64,000 nucleotides of DNA from Paratrimastix pyriformis (taxonomy: Eukaryota; Preaxostyla; Paratrimastigidae): positions 622,501 through 686,500 of the forward strand of contig JAPMOS010000011.1 of NCBI GenBank assembly GCA_027972325.1, given 5' to 3'. Below are positions 35,001 to 49,809 of the stretch, piece after piece. The position numbers were made by a program, and so were the translations under genes. The stretch's first letter is position 1, and every line of letters begins with the position of its first letter. Under the pieces are notes generated by a model. It worked only from the letters and a program-made list of their open reading frames with translations. It was not told where the DNA came from and made no database searches.

Positions 35001-37071
35001 GGCCGCCAGGAGCCCGTCACCTCAGCCCCGGGTGGGCCTGGCCGCCCCCGGCCCCGCCACGCCGCCCCCCTCGTGTAGCCCTGCCCAACCACCCGCCCCC
35101 CCGCGCAGCACGTCGCCGCCCCGGGCCCCGCCACCCGCCGGCCGCCCCGAGGAGGAGACCGACGCCCTGCCGCCGAGGGGGCTGCCCCCCGCCCCGGCCC
35201 TGACGCCCCTCTCGCCGCCCATCCCGCCCCGGCCCGGCAGCCGACAGCAGCAGCAGCAGCAGCAGCAGCAGGGAGGCCCCCCCGAACCCGAGGAGGGGGC
35301 CGCCCTGACGGCCGACGAGCTGCACGCCCTGACCAGGGAGCTCTCCTGCCGCGCCAAGAAGGGTCTGCCCCCGCCCCTGTCCTTGCCCCTGCCCCTGCCC
35401 CTGCCCCTGCCCCTTGTTGGCCCGGCCCGCGAATGGGCCGCATGATCTCTTTGAATGGGCCGCATGATCTCTTTGAATGGGCCGCATGATCTCTGGCTCC
35501 TCACCGACCGGACGGGCCGGTGGGGGGCGGGGGGCGGGGGCGGGGGCGGGTGTCTGCAGGGATCGTCTTCACGGCTCGGGCGCACCCTTCCGAGAGCGGC
35601 GGCAGCTTCGTCATGCGGGGCCTCATGCGGGCCCTGACCCACCCCACACACCCGCTCTCCCGCTGGGCCCGGGAGCACTTCGTCTTCCTTCTGGTGCCCT
35701 GCCTCAACCCCGACGGGGTCGCCCGGTCTGTCCACCCCCCATGCCCGGCCATGCCCGGCCATGCCCGCATGCTCCCCATACCCGGCCCCACCCGGCCCCC
35801 ACCCGGCCCCAACTCGGCCCCCACCCGGCCCCCACCCGGCCCCCACCCGGCCCCAACCCGGCCCCAACCCGGCCCCAACCCGGCCCCAACCCGGCCCCCA
35901 CCCGGCCCCTATGCCCCTCTGCCGCACCCCCGCCCGAACTGCCTGCGTGTGCTCCTTGCTGCCCCGCGTTCGACACCGCTTGACGATGGTGGTGGTGCCT
36001 GTTTGCGTGCCCGTGGCGGTGGCCGTGGGGCAGGGGCAACTACCGGACGGGGCCCACCCGGAACCCGCTGCCGCCCCCCCGGGGCCCCCGCTCCTGCCCG
36101 GCCAGCCCCACCCGATCCGGTCCGGCCCCGGGCCCGGCCGGCGGGTCGCCCCCCGTGGCGGCGGCGCTGTGGGATTGCCGCTGGCGGGGCAGCCCCTACG
36201 GGTGCGACTACAACCGCTCCTGGCACCGGGCCACCCAGGCCGCCCAGGCCACCCTGCCCACCCTCTGGGCCGCCAAGCGGCTCATCAGGGGCCTCCAGCT
36301 CAGGGTCCGCAGCCACCGCCCCGTCCCGACCCAGCCCGCCCCGCCCTCTGACCCGCCCTGCCCTGCCCCCTGCCCTGCCCTGCCCTGCCCTGCCCTGCCC
36401 TGCCCTGCCCTGCCCTGCCCTGCCCTGCCCTGCCCTGCCCTCGTGCCCGCATCATCTTGGGGTGACGCCCCCCATCCCATCGCTGGGGCCCGTTCAGCTG
36501 GCCGCCGCCAACGGGCTGGCTGCCCCCGCCAAGGCCAAGGCAGCCGCCGGGCCCCCAGCGACCGGCCGGGGGGCGCCGCCCGGCGAGACGACGACCGGCC
36601 GGGGCGGTGGCGGTGGGGCCGCGGGCGCCGAGGAGCCCGCCGAGGGGCGGGTGGGCCGGGTGATGCTGTACGGGGACCTCCACGGGGCCGACCAGAGCCC
36701 GGGGGCCTTCTGCTACGGCTTCAACGAGGACGCCCAGGGCCAGACGGGCCTCAACTCGCGCAACGTCCACCTGGCCCAGCTGGTGCACGCCCTGGTGGCG
36801 GCCCGGCCCCGGGGGTCCATGGTCTTCCAGCCGGCCCGCTGCGGGTGGTACCAGTGCTCCCCACACGCGGCCCCGGCCGCCCACGCCCCGCCCGCACCGG
36901 GCCAGCCTCCGCCCGGCACCAGCGGGCTGCCCCCTGGGGCTGCGACAAGCGGTGGGGCCCAGCCGCAGCAGTCGCAGCAGTCGCGACGGCCCCGGTCGCC
37001 CTCGGCCGCATCCTCGTCATCCTCCGATGAGGCCGACCAGCACGGGCGGCGCCCCCGCCCCAGGCCCTCCC

Positions 37072-37109
<38 letters not shown>

Positions 37110-38249
37110 GGCGCCCTTCGCTGGCCGGGCTGTCGGCGGGTGCGGCCCCCTGGGTCGGAGGCCCCCCGGCCGGACCCTCGCCCCGGCGCCCCCACACGCT
37201 CGGCTCGCCGCCCCGTGGGTTGGTGGCCGTGGCCCCCTTGGCCCTGCCGCTGGGCCGCATCGACCCCCCCGGGCCGGCCGGCAGGGGCCTGAGCATCACC
37301 GGGGGGCTGGCGGGCCTGGGTCTGGGCCCGGCCACGGGGCGCGCCCCCATGATGATGAGCGGCCGGGCGGCCCCCCCGTCGGGTGGCGAGGAGGCCCCGC
37401 CGTCCCCGCCGCCCCCGCCGCCCCCGCCGCACCGGCTCGACGCGCTCCTCTACAAGGAGGGGTCTGGCCTGCCTGGCCCCCACCCCGCCATGCCGCCCGG
37501 CCCGGCCCCTCCTCGGTCCCTTGGGAGGGGATCGGCGACAGCAGCAGCTCATGGGGGGCGGGGGGCTCGTCTGTGGGGGCGGTGGGCTGGCGTGCTGGGC
37601 GCCGCAGGTACGTGGCCCTGGCCCCGCACACACTGCGCTTCTACCGGCGCTTCGGGGGGCTGCTGGCCCCCTGCGAGGCGGCCGTGCCCCGGCTGGCGGC
37701 CATGTGCGCACCGGGGGGGCCCCTCGGCCCGGCCGCCCCCTACCTGACCCTGTCCGGTCCCTCGGCCCCACCCACCCCATCATCCCTCGGCCCGGCCCCT
37801 CCCCGCGCCCCGCCACCAGGCGACGTTCCTCACCTCCGCACACCGTCCCGGTGCGGTTCCTTTGCCCCCCCGGGTGCCCTTGGGTGCTGCGGTGTGCATG
37901 CAGGTGGGAGGGCCGGGAGCGGGAGGCCCTTTGGCACCGGCCGCGGGACGTGCGCCAGGGCGGCATCGGGCCCATCTGCCTCAGCGCCGAGCTGGGCCTC
38001 CCGTACGCTTTCACCTTCGAGTTCTCCACCGCCGGGCCGGGCGGGGGACCCGGCGGGGGACCCGGCGGGGGGCCGGGCGGGCTGCACTTCACCCGAGAGG
38101 ACCTCGAGGGCCTGGGCTGGGTGCTCCTCGAGGCCTGCTGCCGCTACTTCGGCCCCGCCCCGCCCCCGCCCGCCCCCGCCTCATCAACCCCACCCCGCCC
38201 CCGCCCCACGTACCCCATGGCTAGGCCAGCCCCCCCCCCCCCCCCATGA
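32038..38249 (+). CDS. Cytosolic carboxypeptidase, M14 family (AGBL/CCP), probable tubulin deglutamylase
   Basis: CCP enzymes remove C-terminal glutamates from tubulin, fitting the ciliary genes next door. It starts MFPENSLSFSFFAKQEPTN at 32038. An intron with donor GTTTGCCTC leads to the CCP N-domain: LCFHNDFESANLLAASRIV, KAQWFFFGLTG and FHVTTLFKRDCVF. Then comes MVAFVAYCYPYTVSDALRDV. The catalytic core shows ARAHPSESGGSFVMRGL (metal HPxE) and VPCLNPDGVAR. It continues NYRTGP, CDYNRSWHRATQAAQ (DLNR equivalent) and YGDLHGADQSPGAFCYGF (metal His). The general-base Glu lies in YAFTFEFSTAGPGG. Long Pro/Ala-rich inserts and repeat-filled introns separate these blocks. A poly-C run just before the TGA at 38249 makes the exact C-terminus uncertain. 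Confidence 0.75.
33261..33282. repeat. Poly-C run (22 nt) in the carboxypeptidase gene
   Basis: A homopolymer downstream of the VLGEGPLVCS-type codons, likely intronic. Shorter C runs also occur at 32824-32839 and 38230-38245 in the same gene. Confidence 0.85.
34018..34156. repeat. Poly-C plus (TCC)n pyrimidine tract, carboxypeptidase intron
   Basis: The intron opens at donor GTCCGGACG (33993) right after FVERHG. The tract is pure pyrimidine on the sense strand. It mirrors the purine GGA array at 24010-24240, but on the opposite strand. Confidence 0.85.
35431..35494 (+). repeat. Three tandem copies of a 22-bp unit, carboxypeptidase intron
   Basis: GAATGGGCCGCATGATCTCT plus TT repeats exactly at 35431, 35453 and 35475; the third copy diverges at its end. 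It sits in the intron that opens at GTCTGCCCC (about 35363), after TRELSCRAKK, and closes before the exon carrying GIVFTARAHPSE. Unlike most repeats here it is not simple sequence. Confidence 0.9.
35775..35912 (+). repeat. (CCCGGCCCCAA)n array, carboxypeptidase intron
   Basis: About eleven imperfect copies of an 11-12 bp C-rich unit follow two CATGCCCGGC copies. The array lies between the exon ending CLNPDGVAR and the exon carrying NYRTGP. Confidence 0.8.
36356..36441 (+). repeat. (CTGCC)n pentanucleotide array, carboxypeptidase intron
   Basis: About sixteen copies of CTGCC, read as CCCTG or CCTGC in other phases. The intron begins at GTCCGCAGC after LIRGLQLR. Confidence 0.85.
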
Positions 38250-39107: not shown

Positions 39108-42100
39108 TCAAGACTGACACCCGTTGGGGCCGTTGGTCTCCACAGGGGCGGCCGGGCCATCGGCGGGGCCATCCAAGGGCAGGGGCGTCAAGGAGTCGCC
39201 GGGGCCCCGGCGGAGGAGGTCGGCGAGGGTCTCCTCGAGGACGGCCATCGGGTAGGGCTTCTGCAGGAAGCGGGCCCCGGCCCGGGTGAGCTCCTCCACG
39301 TCGGCCCCGCCCGGGAAGCCCGACACGATCAGCACGGGCACCCGGGGGTCGGCCTGCCGCATGGCCAGGTAGGCGTCGCGGCCGCCCATCCGGGGCATGA
39401 CCATGTCCAGCATGACCGCCCCCAGGGCCCCCCGGTGGGCCCGGAACTGCTCCAGCCCCTCGACCCCGTCGCAGGCCTGCAGGACCCCGTAGCCCAGGTG
39501 GCGCAGCATCCGCTCGGCAACCTTCCGCACCACCGGGTCGTCGTCTGACCCGTGAGGCCCGGGGCGGCGGGAGGGGGGATGAGGGAGCCAATGGTGAGGC
39601 AAGGGTGAGGCAAGGGTGAGGCAAGGGTGAGGCAAGGGTGAGCCAATGGTGAGCCATGGGTGGTTGGGTGGGTGTGGGTGGGTTTGGGTGTGTGAGCAGC
39701 GAGCGGCCAAAGAGGGACGGGGCCGGGGCGCGCGGACCCACAAGGAGGACGAGGGGGCCCTCGGGGGAGGTCGGGCGGGGCCGTTGGCGGTGGCGGTGGT
39801 GGCGCCCGTGGTGCGAGCGCGGCGCATGGGGCATCGGGGCGACGGTGGGTGGGCTCTCGCCGCCCTGGGGAGGCGACCCGGCCGGAACAGGCAGGGACGA
39901 CGCGACTGACGCGGCGACGGCCCAGGAGGGCTGGCCTGCGTCGAGTGGCTCCAGGAATGGCCGCATCGGGCTGGGGATCGCCGGGGGGGTCATGACAGCC
40001 TGGCCGGGCTGTCCATCGTCGCCGCCAGGGGCGCTCGAGCCGTTCGGGAGTTTGGCCAGGGGCGGTGGGGGTGGGGGCGGGAGGGGCCCCGCGTTCAGGG
40101 GCTTTAGGGCCTCAGGCGGCAACGAGGGGTCCCCCGGGGCCAGCCGCTCGCTGGCGCTGGACGAGGCCGGGGTGGGCGGCATCGAGATCTCCGAGGCCGA
40201 GACCGAGGCCGAGGTCGAGGCCATGACGAGGGCCAGCAGGGGCACGGGCGGTGGCTGGGGCAGGGGCGCGCCGTCGGGAGGATCGTCGAGGCGCCGCATG
40301 CGAACGAGGGAGAGCCGGTCGATGGCCAGCGGGAGCCTGGGGGGCGCAGAGGGCACCGAGCCGGCCGGCGAGGCGTCGCCCAGCGGCATCCAGAGGGCGA
40401 AGGAGGAGCCCCAGGGCCCGGTGGCCACGTCGATCCAGCCGCCCAGGTCCTGCATCATCCCGAAGACGGCCGCCAGCCCCAGGCCGGCCGCCCCGGGCTT
40501 GGTGGTGAAGGGCTCGAAGAGGTGCGCCAGGGCCGGGGCCGCGATGCCCGCCCCCGTGTCGCCCACCGACACCACCAGGTACCGGCCCGGCTGGGCGGCC
40601 GCCGGCAGGGGCGCGCTCGCCCAGGCGGCGTCCCCGCCGACGGGAGCATCCTCGGGCAGGGTCGCGTTGCGGGTGGCCAGCAGCAGGGCGCCCCCGCTGG
40701 GCATGGCGTCCCGCGCGTTGACGGCCAGGTTGAGCAGCGCCGACCGGACCAGCGTCTCGTCGTACTGCACCGGCGCCCCCGCCCACAATCACGCAACGAC
40801 AACACCAACAACCAACAACCAACACCACAGAGGAGATGAGCGCGGGCAGAACCGCCACCCCGCATCATCGCCACCAATTGTGCGCTGTCGCGGTGGGGCG
40901 ATGGGGCTGTGGGCTGTGGGCTGTGGGGCTGTGGGCGGGGCGGGATGGGAGCCGGACCTCGATGTCGTGGGCGGGGGCCCGCAGGGCGCACCGGAGGGCG
41001 ATGCGGGGGTCGAGCGAGTCCCGCAGCAGGCCGGCGATGGTGTCGAGGCACCGGTGCAGGTCCGCGTGGGAGGAGCCGTGGGGCGCCCGCCGGGAGAACA
41101 TGAGCAGCTTGCCCACGATCTCCGAGGCCCGGCCCGCCATGGCCAGCACCTCGCGGAGGGGCTCGTCCGAGGCCACGAAGGGCCCCGCCCGCTCCCGGAG
41201 CAGCTCCACGTTGAGGGTGATCCCCGTCAGGGCGTTGTTGATCTCGTGGGCCACGGCCCCCGCGAAGCGGCCCGTCGACTCGGCCTGGGTCAGGTCGTGC
41301 AGCTGCTTGGTGAAGGCGGCGCACGAGAGCCGGTCGGCCACCAGCGGGGTGATGTCCTCCAGGATGAGGAGCCCCAGGTCGCCCTCCACCGCCACCAGGT
41401 GCACCACCACATGCCGAGTCGCCCCGGCGGCCGTCTGGGCCACAAACTGTCGCCGCGGGGGCGCCGGCCCGGAGGCGGCAGAGCGGCCCGAAGAGGGCAG
41501 GGCCTGCGGGTCGGGCAGCAGGAGGGCCGCCAGCGGGGGCACAGTGGTCAAGTCGTAGCCGAAGTCGGCCCGGCAGCGGGCATTGAGGGCCTCGACCGTC
41601 AGGCCCCGCAGGTACCCCGCCGGGTCGGCCTCGAAGGCCGCCTCGGAAAGGGCCGCGGCCCCTTTGATGACGGCCGTGCCGAAGGGGACCCCTGCGTGCC
41701 CAACGAGGGTCAGAAGATGGCAGGCGGCGAGGGTCAGAACGGGCCGGTCCCGGGTCCAGCACCACCGGAGAAGGGCAGGCGGCGAGTGCCGGCGTCATGG
41801 GGAGTGGCGGCGAGGCGGCGGACCTTCGACCAGGGCGCGGAGGATGGGCAGCTCGGTCCGGAGGGTGGCCACGACCTCCATGATGTGGGTGATCTCCGGG
41901 AACCAGTGCGAGGCCAGCGGGCCGCCGACGGCCGAGCCGGCCTTCTCGGCGGATCGCCCCCACAGGGGCCGCCTGAGCTGGGCGAACTGGGCGTCGAGGA
42001 GGGCCCCCACCTGGGCCGGGATCCGGCTGAAGGGCCGCATGACCACCGTGTCCAGCAGCCAGGCCACCAGCAGCCCGGCGACGATGACGATGACCGCGAT

Positions 42101-42492
42101 CAGGTCGGACATGTAGAGCGACCCCACCAGGGCGCCCTCGTAGATGGGCTCCGTCGGGACGGCGCAGACCAGCAGGTACTGGCGGCCCCCGAAGAAGATC
42201 CCCGTCGCCGTGGCCGAGTGGGACAGGGACCGGGGCGCCAGCAGAGCCGTCCCGTTGCGCACAGCGCCCAGCATGGGGCCGAACAAGGACGCCGCCCAGG
42301 TCACCACGGAGGGGTCCGGGGAAGAGCCGCAGTCGACCGGCACCAGGGTCCCCCCCGGCAGCCACTCGAACAGGACGTTGTGGACCCGCTGGGCCGTGGT
42401 TAAGGACTGGTTGGTCCGCAGAACCCTGGGCAAGGGGAAACCAGTCAAGTGAGCGTGCACTCCCATGGCTCGGCGTGCGCGTGTGTGTCTGT

Positions 42493-42531
<39 letters not shown>

Positions 42532-43869
42532 GTAAAGAAGGAAAGGAGTAACGGCGTGTGTGTGTGTGAGTGTGTGTGCGTGTGTGTGTGTGGGGGGGTG
42601 CATGCGGGACAGACTGGGTCATGTTGAGAGCGTTCCGGGTGAGGATGGCCGCCTTGGGGCTGCTCCCCTCGGGGCCCAGGGGCGAGACCGGGGTCACGCA
42701 GCGCATCTGGCGCGAGGGGCACTCCACCTCGCGGCCCGTGCAGGGCAGGGCAGCCGAGAGGACGCACGAGGCGGTGCCCTCCATGGCGGCGGTCTGCATG
42801 AGAGCGACGTCCTCGGGGCCCAAGAAGGCCGCCGCCTCACTGGAGGACAGCGGACTCGGGCCGCCCAGCACCCAGGGGGCCCACAGGGGCCGCCCTTCGC
42901 ACTGCCCCACGGCCGCGGGGGCACCCAGAAGGCAGCTCTCGACTCGGCCGCCATCGGTGGCCCGAGCCGCGCTGAGGGGCGCCCCGGTGGCCGGGTCGAA
43001 GAGGCCCAGGGCGAAGGTGCCCGGCAGGGCCAGCAAGGGCCCCGCCACGGCAGGCCCCAGAAGGGACAGTGCCCCGTCGGGCCCCAGGGCCCCACTTGCC
43101 CCGGGCAGGCCCGAGGCCGACAGCTGGGCGGCGGCCGAGGCGGCGGCCGTGAGGGGCAGCTGCAGGTTGGTGAGCAGGCCCGTGCTGACGGTGCTGAGAG
43201 CCGATTGGCGCGTGCGCTCCGAGAGGTAGTTGACGATGACCGGCACGGTGGTGTTCAGGAAGACCTGCGCGCCCCACCCACCCCACCCCCACCCACCCAC
43301 ACGTGCAGCGCGAGAATCGTGGAGCGGTGCCAAACGGAGCCCAAAAGGGAGTTGGTGAGCGGCGATGGTGCGCGAGGGGCGATGGGGCGGCATGGAGCGA
43401 GACAGAGGGACATGGGAAGGGGTATGGACAGGTGGCTCTGGGGAGGGTTGAGCGTCCGGACCATCCCCGGGAGGATCGCGGCCAGGGCGCAGGCCAGGCT
43501 GATGAGCAGCAGCACAACTCGCAGCGAGCAGACGCATTGGCGCCGGATGGTCGCCCGACGGGTCTTGGCTGCCGAGGGGCTCTTTGGGCCGGGCCCCCGG
43601 GCGGGCGCCTCAGGGCCAGGGGCCGACCGCGGGTGGGGGTGCTGGGCAGGCCGCGGGGACTCGCCCACCAGGGAGACGGCCCCAGCGGCTGAGCCCGAGG
43701 ACGGGGGCTCCGAGGCGGACGATGGGGGAGCGGTCGCGTCCAGGCAGAGGGCCACCGGGGGCGAGGGCGAGGAGGAGCGCCCGGGCAGGGGGCCCGCAGA
43801 CGAGGTCGGGGGTGGCAGGGCGGAGCAGGCAGTCAGGGGCGAGCAAAGTCGGGCCGCAATGGCCTCCAT
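39108..43869 (-). other. Kinase module B (complete phosphorelay)
   Basis: Membrane helix VVLLLISLACALAAILPG, a Cys-containing sensor region (43264-42630, then from about 42425) and a second helix AVIVIVAGLLVAWLLD. The H box is GAVAHEINNALTGI, with His at 41247-41249. The N box is NLAVNARDAMPSGG, G1 is GDTGAGI, and F/G2 is LFEPFTTKPGAAGLGLAA. The receiver has DDDP, phospho-Asp in AVMLDMVMPRMGG (39405-39407), Ser in IVSGF and Lys in FLQKPYP. All residues for His-Asp transfer are present. A Ser/Ala/Pro-rich linker separates the ATP domain from the receiver. Confidence 0.78.
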
Positions 43870-46800
43870 CCTGCGCGGGAGAGGGATGGGAATGGGCGAG
43901 TTTGGGCCGGGCGCACGAAGAGCGACAGCAGATCCGGGTGGGGGGTGGGGACGGGGTGCACGTGGGTACAATCGCGGAGGAAGGGGCGGACCGGTAGGGT
44001 TTGGTGAAGGTCTGGGCCCCGCAGCGCTGCAGGGTCTTCATGTCGGCCGCGAGGGGCCCCGGGCCTGCCTGGGGCAGCACCAGAATGAGCGAGGCGGCCG
44101 GGGCGGCCAGCCGGAGGCGGTCGAAGAGGTCTCGCAGGGTGCCCCCGGGGTAGGGCGCCGCCACGGCCAGCAGGACCAGCTTCAGGGGCCGCCCTCGGGC
44201 CAGTTGGATGGCCACGTCCCCGTCGGGGGCGGCCAGGACCCGGTAGCCGAGCATCTGCAGGAGCCCCTCGGCCGCGGCCTGGTCGCTTGGGTCCGGTTCC
44301 ACAAGCAGCACCTCCTGCCCGGCGTCCAGCAAGCCCCACAGCCACAGCAGCCGTCAGCAAGGGGAATGGCAGCCAACGGAGAATGCAGGCGGAGAGAAAG
44401 AGACAGCCAGACCTCTGGTGGGGACAGGGCCAGCGGACGGGCGGGCAGGGCCTGGCCGGGGGGCTCCGCAGGCGGGGGTGAGGGGGGTTGGGGGGGCGGA
44501 GCCGTGTCACCCTGATGAGCCTGGTCAGGGCCGGCGGGACCCTCGCCACTTCCATTCCCCACCGTCTCAGCGCCCTGGATCTCCGAGCAGGCGCCACGGG
44601 GGGTCTCGGGCGCGTTGCCTGCCCTCTTCGGGGAGTACCGCCTGGACGGCGCCCCGCCGACGGAGGCCCGCCGGCCCGCGGGCGGCAGTTGGCAGTCGGC
44701 GAACTGGAGGGGCTTGGCCGATGAGGGGGAGTCCGGGGGGGCCGCGGCCTCGAAGAAGGGCGGCCGCTCGGGGAAGAAGTGGGTCCGCAGGGGCGCCTCG
44801 GCCGACTCGCGCCCCTCGAAGGGCACCGCCATCTCCACCCTGCCCCCATCCATCCCCATCCCATCCACCCATCCACCCACCCAGCCACACAACCAGCACG
44901 CCCCCATCCCCAAGCAGCGCAAATCATCGTAACGGCGGCGACAGGCAGCTTCAGGGCCAGGGGGCGAGGGCTGACCGGGTGCCCCAGGGGCCGCTCCAAA
45001 AATCTACGGTACCGCCCAGGTCGCAGGCCATCCCGTAGATCACCGGGATGCCCAGCCCGGTGCCGCGGGGGCCCTTGGTGGTGAAGAAGGGCTCCGCCAT
45101 GCGGCCGAGGGTGGCCTCGTCCATCCCCGAGCCATTGTCGGTGCAGGTGATCCACTGCACGAGGCAAGGGCACGCGGGCCAAAACGAGAGTCCAATGAAA
45201 AACGAGAAAGGGCCCACCAGGCGGATGGGATGGGGCCGGGGATGGGGGTGGGTTGGGCTTTGGCCGAGCGATGGTGCGCCTTGTGGAGTGGCCGAACGGA
45301 CCAGGTAGGTAGACGTGGACCGGGTGGCGACGGTCAGCCGACCCTGGGGGCCGCGCCCCTCGAGGGCGTCGAAGGCGTTCAGGGCGAGGTGGGTCAGCCC
45401 CGTCACAAGGGAATCCCGGGAGTACTGTCCGACCCAGTGCCAAACCGATGCCAAAGCTCAGAGAAGGAGCGGTGCGGGAGGCGGTGCGGGAGGCGGTGCG
45501 GGAGGCGGTGCGGTGCGGAGGCGGTGCGGTGCGGGAGGGGGCGGAGGCGGGGCCGGGCGGAGGCGGGGCCGGGCGGACCAAGAGGTCGGCGCGGGAGGCC
45601 TGGAGCTCGGTCGTCACCTGCGCCAAAGAAGAAGCCCTCAGCTGGCGGGCAGCCTTCAGCGCCTCCTCGATTCCCTGGGTGTTGGTGCGAAAGTCAGCGA
45701 GCGGAAGCGTGTTCACGTACTGGTTGCGTGTGGTGCGCACGAGAGTGGGCGGTGATGGTGGTGGGCGGTGTGGTGGGGGCGGGGGAGGTGCGTTGGGGGC
45801 GGGGTGGTAGTGGCGGGTGCGGCGGGGTGGCGGGTGTGTGGGCGGGTGTGGGGCGGATGGTAGAGGTGGTGGGGCGGCGGTGCGGACCGTGTGCACATCG
45901 GTGCGGGCGGAGGCGCGGGCGCCCGAGGAAGAGAGCCGGCCGATGGTGTCCGTGACCCGAGCCGCCATGGCCAGCACCTCATCCAGGGTGGCCAGCACCT
46001 CGGCCCGCTCGCCGGACAACCCCGGGCCCCCAGCCGGCCCGTCCGTCGGACTGGGGCTCACGAGTTGGCAGCGGAGCAACTCGAGGGTGCTCACCATGCC
46101 GCACATGCAGTTGTTCAGGCCCACAGCAAAGCCTAGGATGATGCGCCATGATCAATGGGTGCCGCCCGTGGCCGTGACCACCAAGAGCAGGAGGAGAGAG
46201 ATAGGAGGAGAGAGACAGGGGGAGAGAGACAGGAGGAGAGAGACAGGAGGAGAGAGACAGGAGGAGAGAGACAGGAGGAGAGAGACAGGAGGAGAGAGAC
46301 AGGAGGAGAGAGACAGGAGGAGAGAGACAGGAGGAGAGAGACAGGAGGAGAGAGACAGGAGGGGAGGGGAGACAGGAGGAGCAGGAGGAGCAGGAGCAGA
46401 AGGGAGGTGGGTGGGTGGGTGGGCGAAGCTGAAGGAGAGCGGGCGCGGGGCGGACCCCTCGCAAGCCTGCCGAGACAGCGGAGGCGCTGGGCGTCGAGGA
46501 AGTCCCGCTCCAGGGCGATGAGGGCCTGCGCCTCGGTCATCAGGGGAGTCAGGTCCTCAAACACCAGCAGCCCCATCGCCGGACTGCCCCGACCCACGGG
46601 GGTGGGGGTGGGCGAATGAGCGAGAGTGAAAAAGGGCCCTTATTCGGAAGAGCCGGAGAATGGAGCCTCGCTTCCAGGAGAGGAAGATGAGGGGCCGAGG
46701 AAGAGGGGCTGCCTTTGTCACGATCGTCAGCCAAGGCGGAGTCGCACGCGGCGGCGGCGGCGAGGGGTGCGCAACAAACCGAGGGACGAGCACAGGGAAG

Positions 46801-49198
46801 GCGGCGGGGAGGTGACAGGCGGAGGGGACAGGCCGACCTGATGGAGAACGGGTACGCAACGACATGCGCAGAGTGGCCGTCCTGGCAGCGAAGCGACATC
46901 CGAGCTCCCGGATGGAGCGGCGCCCTGCCGATGAGGATGGAGAGGAGCCGAGCCAGATGAGGAACCGCATGCATGAGGACATTCGGCTCTCAGCTCCCTC
47001 CCTCGGCTCTCGGGTGGGTGAGTGGGGGGCAGACCCTCGGAGGACGAGCAGGTCGGCCAGGTGGGGCGGCTGGGCACCATACCCGAAGTGGGCCACGAAG
47101 GCCGCGTTGGCATGGAAGGCCTCCCAGTGGGTCCAATCCAGAGCCGCGTTCGCCCGGCGCGCCGCGTCCTGGTCGGAGGGAACCTCGGCGCCCGTGAGGC
47201 TTCGCGCCCTGCTGGCCCTGGCGGGTGGGTCTGGAGGATTCTCCGGCCGCCGCGCGGGGCTGGCTGGGGGCGTCAGCCCCTCCTGGTCCAGGGGCAGCCC
47301 GATCATCCCTGTGTCCACCACGCCAGCGTCGGCGTCCATGACCGGGGGCGGGGGCGACGGGCGTGGGCCACCACCGGGCATGGACACCGTGGCGGGGGTG
47401 ACACCCTTGCGACCAGCGCCAACCAGCGGGGCCGAGGGACTTGAGGGCGCCTGGCGGATGTACAGTAATGGGAAGGGCAGCCGATCCAGAAGCGCCCTGC
47501 CCCCGCCGAGACCCAAAGCCAAAGAGAAGAGATGGAGATGGAGGTGGATCCCGGCTCCATCTCCATCCCCATCTCCATCCCGGCTCCATCCCCATCTCCA
47601 TCCCGGCTCCATCTCCATCTCCATCTCCATCTCCATCTCCATCTCATTTATGGAGCCGGGACGGAGCACAGGGGGCGAGGTTTCAGGCAGCGCAAGGGGG
47701 GGTGGGGGCACGGACGCGATCAGGCGCTTGCGGGTTGTGACCCGCTGGAGCAGCTCGACCGTCTCGCGGAACTCTCGCACCACCAGGCGGCCCCGGCCCA
47801 GCGGGTCGGCGCTGGAGGCCTCGAGGATTCCCCCGAAGCCCACCACCGGACCGGCCGCAGCCTGACGAATCTGGTGGACGAATGTTGCGAAGAAGGGACG
47901 CCGCACGCTCAAGGCGCCCCAGATGACAAGGGCCGTGCTGGCGAAGATGCTGAGGGCAATGGTTAGCCCCAGGCCCACAAACAGGGGCCGAAAGAGGGAA
48001 GAGAAGGTCGCCGACGGGAAGGAGACCGCCCCATAGAGGACGGCCGCCTCCTCGTCGCCCCCCGGAGGGGACGAGAGGTGCAATGGGAGTCTGGACACGG
48101 CCCAGACGCGGCCCTGGACGGAGAGCTGCACGGGATAGCTGGGCAGAGGCATGCGCTCTCTGATGGCCGCCACCAGGGTCGTCCTGGCGGTCGGGTCGGT
48201 GGTCGGGTCGGTCGCACCCCACGCAGTCTCCAGAGACCCGTCGAAGAGCCTACCGGTCAAGGTGAGGTCACGATGTCGAGCGGCGGGCCGACAGACAGAA
48301 ATTGCGGCTGGGAGCCGTCGGGCTTGTTCGGGAGGCGTGACGGAAAGATGGTGCTGTGGGTGAGACGGAGAACGGGAAGATAGGTGAGCTCTGCAGGATA
48401 TGGGCGAACGGGTGGGGACCTCGCGTTGGTGAAGACGCGGCCGGTCATCAGGGCGCCCAACAGCTGGGGCCCGGTGGGGGTCCATGAGGAGATGGGGGAC
48501 CACACGCCGACTGCATGCAGCCCCAGAGCGGGGTCGCTCTCCACAACCAGCATGGTCCGGTTCGTTTGGACCACAGCCGCCACCCGCTCGTCCAGCCGGG
48601 CCAAGCCCGGGATCGTCGCATTCCATGAGGCGCCCACCGCCAGGCTGCCGGGCGGGAGCAGAGGCGGAGAGGGGTTGGAGGAAGCTCCGTCGAATGCGCC
48701 GAGATCGTTGGACGCCGAGTGGCCCAGGTGCCAAGGGGGGCCACACACCCGAAGGCTGGTCCATTGCCGGGTATCGTTGGACCGTTGGGCAAACTGGTCC
48801 GCGGTGACCAGGTAGGCCGACCCGTCCCGGAGGCCGGCAAGCTGAAACCCAGTCTGCTGCTCTTGAATACTGCCCTCGGATGTGCTCAAGAAAGCCACAA
48901 ATTGGAACGGGTCTTTGAAAAGACTCCGAGAGTCAGTGACATTCAACAACGTCCGCGAAGAAAGGAGTTCGATAGAGTCCACAACGCGGGCGGAGGTGGA
49001 ATCCAGGGTTTGGGGATACTTCAAAACAAGAACTTTGCTTGTTTCATCTAGCAAACAATCAGTCAAAGGGTCGCAAAGAAAAAAGATATATATCAGACCA
49101 GTATTGTTATGGATCGTAATGAAAGCTGTCGCCAAAACAATGTTTACCAGAATGGAAAGAACAACAGATGAGAGGATCAAAAAAACGAAGAGGCGCAT
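39108..49198 (-). CDS. Tandem double hybrid histidine kinase (two sensor-kinase-receiver modules)
   Basis: One apparent gene encodes two membrane sensor kinases in series. It starts MRLFVFLILSSVVLSILV at 49198 and ends at 39108. Each module has a membrane helix, an outside sensor region, a second membrane helix, a PAS-like segment, a histidine-kinase dimerisation helix, an ATP-binding domain and a receiver domain. The join is explicit. The first receiver runs QTFTKPYR, then intron 43871-43990 (donor GTCCGCCCC, acceptor CGCGCAG), then MEAIAARLCSPLTAC. This completes the receiver's last helix and runs on through a Pro/Ser linker into VVLLLISLACALAAILPGM. Intron 43265-43461 (donor GTCCGGACG) then leads to VFLNTTVPVIVNYLSERT. 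I found no stop between the modules. Two overlapping genes remain possible if transcription also begins before MEAIAARL. Confidence 0.65.
42492..42593. repeat. (TG)n microsatellite in a kinase intron
   Basis: Two TG/TGTG blocks separated by about 25 bp. The intron runs from donor GTCTGTCCC after ALNMTQ to the acceptor before VLRTNQSL. Confidence 0.85.
46195..46376. repeat. (GGAGAGAGACA)n-type minisatellite in a kinase intron
   Basis: About eleven copies of a 15-bp purine-rich unit, GAGAGAGACAGGAGG. It lies between the exon ending RLRCLGRLA and the exon carrying the module A dimerisation helix. The repeat has no stops in several frames, which makes long artefactual ORFs on both strands. Confidence 0.85.
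47550..47648. repeat. (CATCTC)n/(CCATCC)n hexanucleotide array in the kinase gene
   Basis: CATCTC and GGCTCCATC units alternate. On the minus (sense) strand this reads as Glu-Met repeats directly after GSINEME. It could be a short coding repeat, but an intron is just as likely because the PAS-like exon resumes only near 47480. Confidence 0.7.
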
Positions 49199-49313: not shown

Positions 49314-49809
49314 AATGGAGATTGAACAAGAAAGAGAAAAGAACGAAAGCCCACCAGAAACTCGTCTGTTTGTGCCCGACCAAAAGTTCGCGCATGAAAA
49401 ATAGATTTATTTGTCAAGCGCGCACCACTTCGCCCGGACGCCCAGAAAAATGATATCTGGATTTCGAGGGGACACTCGCTTGCGCCTCTTCTCCCGCGTT
49501 TTCGACGACTTCTTTTTCAGGATAAGTACTCAGAGATCCGAATTCATGCAATGGGAGCTGCCATCTTTGCTGCGGTCAAAATCTCACTCCAGCTCCAGCG
49601 AACGTACCCCAACGCCCTCCAGTTACGCACCGAGACGTCCACAGTGCAACTCTTTGATGACTATGTTCCCCTGACCGAGGTCCGTCCAGCTCTGCGCTGC
49701 TCCGTCAGTTGGCCTCCTCGCCTCCCAGGATGCTGAGATGGAGACGGGCACACGGTACAACTCAGCCATCCACATCACGGTATCTCGAGTGGATCAGACG
49801 AGCAGGTGA
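49314..49809 (+). CDS. POP7: RNase P/MRP protein subunit POP7 (Rpp20), Alba fold
   Basis: Small Alba-family subunit that binds the RNA of RNase P and RNase MRP in the nucleus. The conserved core reads NDIWISRGHSLAPLLPRF, then YSEIRIHAMGAAIFAAVK, then TSTVQLFDDYVPL, and ends NSAIHITVSRV. These match human POP7 (NDIYV, EIYIHGLGLAINRAI, NTSTVELVDELEP, NNSAIHIRVFRV). Intron 49680-49728 (49 nt, donor GTCCGTCCA) joins PLTE to DAEMETGTRY. The N-terminus is inferred: MEIEQEREKNESPPETRLF followed by a 68-nt intron (donor GTGCCCGAC, 49378-49445) keeps the frame. The stop TGA is at 49807-49809. The length, about 110 residues, is slightly short for the family. Confidence 0.75.

Follow-up and report, generated by a model that had tools for sequence, protein, structure and literature searches.

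A predicted tandem hybrid histidine kinase of Paratrimastix pyriformis in which one module lacks the phospho-acceptor histidine

The window, which is the whole stretch of 64,000 nucleotides that was analysed and belongs to contig C13 of Paratrimastix pyriformis, carries on its minus strand, from position 49198 to 39108, a spliced gene model which was confirmed at the sequence level as one gene with two tandem kinase modules. Each module of the predicted protein consists of a membrane sensor, a PAS-like region, HisKA and HATPase domains and a receiver. We propose, with a probability of roughly 0.5, that the first module (A) acts as a built-in pseudo-histidine-kinase beside the second (B) and would govern, in response to the signal that A itself receives, how the histidine of B is phosphorylated, where the preferred catalytic route would run from the ATP domain of A to the histidine of B. 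The features of the gene are as follows, all on the minus strand.

39108..49198, minus strand: whole gene, 17 exons, 2413 aa, ATG at 49198 and stop at 39108 (spliced model)
49103..49198, minus strand: membrane helix 1, start of module A, aa 1-32 (hydropathy scan)
47901..47999, minus strand: membrane helix 2, aa 344-376 (hydropathy scan)
45888..46583, minus strand: HisKA-like helices of module A, exons 5-6, LARGFAVGLNNC (model and paralog alignment)
46124-46122, minus strand: Val667 in place of the phospho-histidine of module A, inside an exon (residue checked)
44815..45412, minus strand: HATPase of module A, exons 8-10, with N-box LALNAFDAL, DNGSGM, EPFFTTK and GTGLG; HATPase_c at aa 782-886
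43833..44314, end approximate, minus strand: pseudo-receiver of module A, exon 11 plus the opening residues of exon 12, acid pair E-P, lysine kept
44167-44165, minus strand: Ala1070 in place of the receiver aspartate of module A, inside an exon (residue checked)
43871..43991, minus strand: intron joining modules A and B, 121 bases, donor GTCCGC, acceptor GCAG
43462..43542, minus strand: membrane helix 3, aa 1238-1278, continuing into exon 13 (hydropathy scan)
42026..42136, minus strand: membrane helix 4, aa 1578-1614 (hydropathy scan)
40958..41691, minus strand: PAS-like end and HisKA of module B, exon 15, AGAVAHEINN; Pfam HisKA at aa 1822-1883
41248-41246, minus strand: His1830, phospho-acceptor of module B (residue checked)
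40381..40761, minus strand: HATPase of module B, with N-box, DTGAGI and the altered lid FEP-FTTK, AAGLGLA
39225..39545, minus strand: receiver of module B, beginning in exon 16 (Response_reg)
39407-39405, minus strand: Asp2315 of the module B receiver (residue checked)

The frame obtained by joining GTC donors to AG acceptors runs through all 2413 residues with no internal stop, and both ends of the gene span given in the preliminary description proved exact. All 16 donors start with GTC and ten of them with GTCCG, a sequence that is rare overall (it accounts for 20 of 417 GT over 10.3 kb), while the acceptor is GCAG in 10 of the 16 introns. The preference for GTC donors, mostly GTCCG, across all 16 introns should help in predicting other genes of this genome. 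A Pfam search of the joined protein, in which only the best stretch per family was located, matched two HATPase_c, two Response_reg and one HisKA stretch. The best HATPase_c stretch, that of module A, spans profile positions 5-110 of 111 despite the two introns that cut the domain; in unspliced DNA, a single exon of it matched positions 39-97. The near-complete match of the spliced domain therefore provides an independent check on the splices. Modules A and B also have a common phase 0 intron position just before the N-box. By eye, units of about 14 bases were seen to be repeated in tandem in intron 5 (window positions around 46185-46365). An Rpp20/Alba-like open frame at 49398-49736 on the plus strand lies divergently about 200 bases from the ATG of the kinase gene, and a more weakly matching M14 carboxypeptidase-like frame at 35490-37292 bounds the gene on its other side.

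At the module border, the joining intron (CG/GTCCGC...GCAG/GATGGAG, where slashes mark the splice sites) is in frame, has the donor type that this gene prefers, splits the stretch FTKPYR/MEAIAARL and cuts into receiver A right in front of the final helix of that domain. The same stretch was observed to lie in one exon in the paralogs C13:476k (KPYRLEALTAARL) and C13:517-522k (KPYRMEALAATL), so that MEAIAARL closes receiver A and does not begin a new protein. A separate start before MEAIAARL, and hence two genes, was rejected on these grounds, and the stop-free 17-exon model together with the two exonic borders bears out the earlier claim of one gene spanning both modules. Without splicing, the frame of A continues for about 126 residues past the border to a stop. 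None of the four AATAAA-like signals searched was found within the border interval or in the 200 bases on either side. Among the deposited models of paralogs, P0001 (C190, 2758 aa) and P0027 (C46, 2075 aa) cover both modules, and P0002 (C13:476k, 1671 aa) begins inside the ATP domain of A and continues through B. Both P0001 and P0027 carry unrelated tails at their ends (HMG-box and Snapin-like), so models of this kind may extend too far and their junctions are taken as supporting evidence only. The gene prediction of this genome, as outlined in part of the genome paper, used RNA-seq intron hints (PMC10703272).

Module A of the window gene has valine (Val667) for the phospho-histidine and alanine (Ala1070) for the receiver aspartate, as the preliminary description had read them, and the ATP-binding motifs it was said to retain (N, G1, F and G2 boxes) are all canonical. 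The HisKA profile matches module B only while the HATPase_c profile matches A. By these residues, A is classed as a putative pseudo-histidine-kinase, with a histidine kinase fold that lacks its phospho-acceptor, and its receiver, with the acid pair E-P and alanine for aspartate, as a putative pseudo-receiver. Two other explanations of the missing histidine were rejected. A splice artefact is ruled out because C13:517-522k has QLARGFTVALNNC in one exon, and the sole histidine that is invariant in the seven A cores aligned and could act as a substitute, His744 (D-x-H after the second helix), also occurs in B and in a single-module kinase.

Module B combines HisKA, HATPase_c and Response_reg (Pfam) with His1830 and Asp2315 in one chain, which is the domain set of a hybrid histidine kinase. 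It had been described as keeping all of its motifs; this stands for His1830, Asp2315 and the N and G1 boxes, but the F-box is one residue short and G2 reads AAGLG. Only B has both the histidine and the receiver aspartate, in line with the earlier claim that the two joined modules have a single acceptor set between them. CckA is one of the top-scoring relatives of the B kinase core, with a VirA-like kinase ahead of it. Two CckA models gave 118 and 114 bits against the B core alone, below a curated cut-off of 1000 which is set for the whole protein, and B is therefore described here as a relative of CckA-type kinases.

Four membrane helices, two per module, were located by Kyte-Doolittle hydropathy with a window of 19, which places both kinase parts on the same side of the membrane. 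Roughly 310 aa between helices 1 and 2, and roughly 300 aa between helices 3 and 4, are presumably extracellular; no Pfam family was matched in either region of the joined protein. The two regions are unlike each other, with a best mutual match of E 4.8 as compared with 1.7e-24 between the two kinase cores. This agrees with the two different sensor regions noted previously, and they may sense different things.

Paralogous loci were found by searches with the B core and with Pfam profiles, and eleven were modelled besides the window gene using a protein-to-genome spliced aligner written for this analysis; the family survey excludes loci L001-L008, L017 and L018, covers L034-L036 in brief and takes in the database protein P0041 for its lid alone. 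Nine double genes were obtained: the window gene, C13:476k, C13:517-522k, C190:76k, C190:95k, C245, C456, C14 and C79. The phospho-histidine position of A is occupied by valine in seven and leucine in two of these genes, whereas B has histidine in all nine, and a readable frame runs through the A kinase core in every one. In a tree of 31 rows, the ten A rows fall into a single clade (100/99), and a second clade (100/99) holds the eleven B rows that come from double genes. One further row carries the label B, that of the single-module kinase C452:76k; it groups with P0014 near eight bacterial rows, and this kinase is normal (AHDFNN, FF and GTGLG). Both modules of C46:455k, the A module of C46:498k and C468:157k were dropped before the tree and motif table were made, and parts of the B rows of C190, C245 and C456 are affected by out-of-frame spliced alignment. 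Since A and B form separate clades and the histidine is missing in A of all nine genes, the duplication and the loss of histidine predate the family radiation, and the loss is ancestral and maintained. A protein search with the A profile followed by a simple motif count gave no further acceptor-less relatives, as 101 of the 120 matches listed (998 over the threshold) have the histidine and 19 gave no readable motif.

Other members of the family depart from this pattern. Three genes of contig C46 (C46:282k, C46:498k and C46:455k, or L016, L031 and L029) have arginine for the phospho-histidine in B. In C46:282k and C46:498k, A is also without histidine and these two are predicted to be pseudo-histidine-kinases throughout the whole protein; the A module of C46:455k was not recovered. 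We noticed that the three C13 genes have B cores which are 98.8-99.2% identical at the protein level (window 40381-41434) but A cores which are just 40-47% identical. This can be read as a recent exchange or gene conversion of module B between C13 genes with different sensors. C13:517-522k (L015/L021) has an in-frame stop in its B receiver and a degenerate A ATP domain, and is possibly a pseudogene or a sequence error. Furthermore, C190:75-84k and C190:87-97k (L009 and L010) are double genes with cores about 90% identical, in opposite orientation and some kilobases apart, and appear to be an inverted duplication; compared with C245, both seem to change frame within the helix region of B.

In the receivers of A, the catalytic residue was observed to be alanine in the window gene and C456, glutamate in C13:476k and C13:517-522k, serine in C245 and aspartate in both C190 genes and C79, while the A receiver of C14 was not found. 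Three of the eight A receivers thus retain aspartate, and none of the eight has the second acid of the pair. The preliminary description had asked if both substitutions are conserved: among the paralogs, the loss of histidine is (9/9, Val or Leu) and that of the receiver aspartate is not. The last receiver of B keeps its aspartate in all nine genes, followed in C13:517-522k by the in-frame stop, and an extra receiver lies between the B ATP domain and the last receiver in seven of the nine, being absent from the window gene and C13:517-522k. No Hpt domain was found in the P. pyriformis genome by a six-frame profile search which ignored introns and would miss a split domain. Receiver domains without a listed HATPase on their own contig do occur (C1).

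The ATP lids of the two modules differ. The A lid is canonical (FF and GxGLG) in six of the nine double genes; C13:476k has FF but AAGVG, C79 has one F with its G2 not recovered, and C13:517-522k has neither. In contrast, all nine B lids read FEP-F/S-TTK, with one residue deleted, and AAGLGLA, with alanine for the first glycine of G2, while the B N-box and DTGxGI are still present and GLG is retained. As a yardstick we used 140 relatives from the first two protein searches, which were chosen by similarity and are not a random sample: 129 have a readable motif, and these have two aromatic F-box residues in 129/129 (119 FF, 9 FY and 1 YF) and glycine first in G2 in 127/129. The lesions of A and B are partly complementary, with A lacking the histidine and B having an altered lid. 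The altered lid of B gives more weight to the idea that A supplies ATP while B carries the phosphoryl group than the preliminary description had. An essentially B-type lid (FEPYTTKPGAAGLGLP) was also observed in P0041, a predicted protein of 876 residues encoded on a 4737-base metagenome contig. P0041 is 60% identical to part of B and perhaps a relative of the double-kinase family outside P. pyriformis.

Histidine kinases of this class are dimers formed via a four-helix bundle. In our proposal, the product of one gene is a tandem hybrid histidine kinase which spans the membrane four times and has two regions outside the cell. By its sequence, A keeps the fold and usually the ATP site after losing the acceptor histidine and the integrity of its receiver, and B holds the sole acceptor histidine and the sole intact receiver. 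A would adjoin B as the other half of the bundle, either in the same chain or with a partner chain, and its own signal would gate the phosphorylation of B's histidine, preferably by the ATP domain of A. The receiver of B would then accept the phosphoryl group and two signals would feed one output. The degenerate A ATP domain of C13:517-522k, the altered A G2 of C13:476k and the unrecovered G2 of C79 mean that a canonical A ATP site is not kept in every member. These three genes argue against a strictly catalytic role for A; in C13:517-522k, B keeps the histidine even so. We suggest only tentatively an intramolecular split histidine kinase, where A would provide a working lid without histidine and B a histidine with a weakened lid. 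Only the A/B pair would then phosphorylate, each module needing its own signal, and the protein would be a covalent coincidence detector in a metamonad.

It is possible, although we hold it to be doubtful, that A is purely allosteric and non-catalytic, while autophosphorylation of B relies on B's own ATP domain and takes place across two chains, from one B module to the other. With its N-box, G1 and GLG still in place, B may suffice by itself, and the combination of a retained B histidine with a lost A ATP domain in C13:517-522k points the same way. A would then stand to B as DivL does to CckA, or as the JH2 pseudokinase, which regulates JH1, does in JAK. In addition, CckA is among the best-scoring relatives of the B core after the VirA-like kinase, and DivL, with tyrosine for histidine, is described in the relevant part of one paper as having no kinase activity, binding ATP weakly and sensing a phosphorylated regulator (PMC4211667). 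The distribution of the lids, canonical in six of nine A modules and altered in nine of nine B modules, speaks against this explanation.

An unlikely alternative is that A serves as a phosphatase arm which, with the glutamate and asparagine of E-x-x-N but no histidine, dephosphorylates the B receiver or a downstream regulator. Five of the nine A modules read VELNN, which is H-D/E-x-N-N with just the histidine changed, and EnvZ H243V reportedly retains phosphatase activity. The histidine is stated to be dispensable for the phosphatase activity of HisKA domains in a section of PMC12632262. However, the window gene reads VGLNN in module A with no acidic residue, and three other A modules of the nine have G, A and G at this position.

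That A is functionless sequence decaying after a tandem duplication is very improbable, even though A diverges more than B, its ATP domain is degenerate in C13:517-522k and the three C46 genes have also lost the B histidine. We aligned seven A cores, which are those of the nine double genes other than C13:517-522k and C190:95k. Of the 39 invariant columns, 19 fall within the first 40 positions out of 245, around the site of the lost histidine (hypergeometric 1.3e-7), and the helix that lost the histidine is thus the most conserved part of A. The motif there is G-R-L-A-R-G-F-x-V/L-x-L-N-N-C, with the first R replaced by Q in C13:517-522k. Five pairs from the C190/C245/C456/C14 group give NG86 dN/dS values for A of 0.51, 0.53, 0.53, 0.32 and 0.31, which argues against decay as does the readable frame through all nine A cores, but four more divergent pairs with C13 genes, which are 40-47% identical and less surely aligned, give 0.76, 0.70, 1.08 and 0.62. 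The dN/dS of B is unreliable where the alignment left the frame (1.43 and 1.37 for C190 vs C245 and perhaps 0.54 for C456 vs C14). Two separate genes or an assembly error would be equally improbable: the deposited protein of the window gene is absent among the matches listed in length-limited protein searches, but the canonical intron within the receiver end with its exonic counterparts, the three deposited paralog models that cross the border and the two-module loci on six other contigs (C190, C245, C456, C14, C79 and C46) all argue against it.

No title on the P. pyriformis double-kinase family was found among the matches listed in the open literature. The Preaxostyla genome paper (PMC10703272) does not use the word "histidine" in its main text, and a review covering the histidine kinases of archaea and eukaryotes (PMC6944256) has none of "metamonad", "excavate", "dual" and "tandem" in its main text. 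All matches listed with an organism name in three protein searches are from P. pyriformis or bacteria, many others being unnamed. The heterolobosean excavate Acrasis kona is described in part of one paper as rich in hybrid histidine kinases (PMC11589745), and two-component receptors as such are therefore not new in that part of the tree.

Identical halves normally make it hard to test in histidine kinase dimers if one half is a pure regulator or a pure catalyst. A natural fusion of unequal halves, multiplied in one genome, fixes the stoichiometry and makes this question directly testable. The family also shows that the two-component repertoire of a metamonad with a free-living way of life is of considerable size, P. 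pyriformis being a free-living anaerobic flagellate.

Several known systems resemble this arrangement in part. Like JAK, the predicted protein combines a pseudokinase and a kinase in one chain, but JAK has an unrelated fold and chemistry and no transmembrane sensor in itself, whereas the P. pyriformis modules carry membrane helices. Fungal dual hybrid histidine kinases (group XII, such as Tco2 and Tco4 of Cryptococcus) also have two kinase-receiver sets per polypeptide; the passages describing them give two complete sets and report no missing histidine (PMC6423903; PMC8510515), whereas A of P. pyriformis never has the histidine. By this description, the P. pyriformis kinase is also set apart by a membrane helix pair of its own in each module. 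CheA3 and CheA4 of Rhodobacter sphaeroides, of which one is without the phosphorylatable domain and the other without the catalytic one, function only together according to part of PMC3591291. These are separate proteins of the CheA class, and B of P. pyriformis still has most of its ATP domain. DivL of Caulobacter is, in the portion of PMC4211667 concerned, a pseudo-histidine-kinase with tyrosine for histidine and the partner of a CckA-type kinase, and the pairing with a CckA-related kinase is likewise predicted here. However, DivL and CckA are separate proteins and DivL binds ATP weakly, whereas the P. pyriformis pair is fused and six of its nine A lids are canonical.
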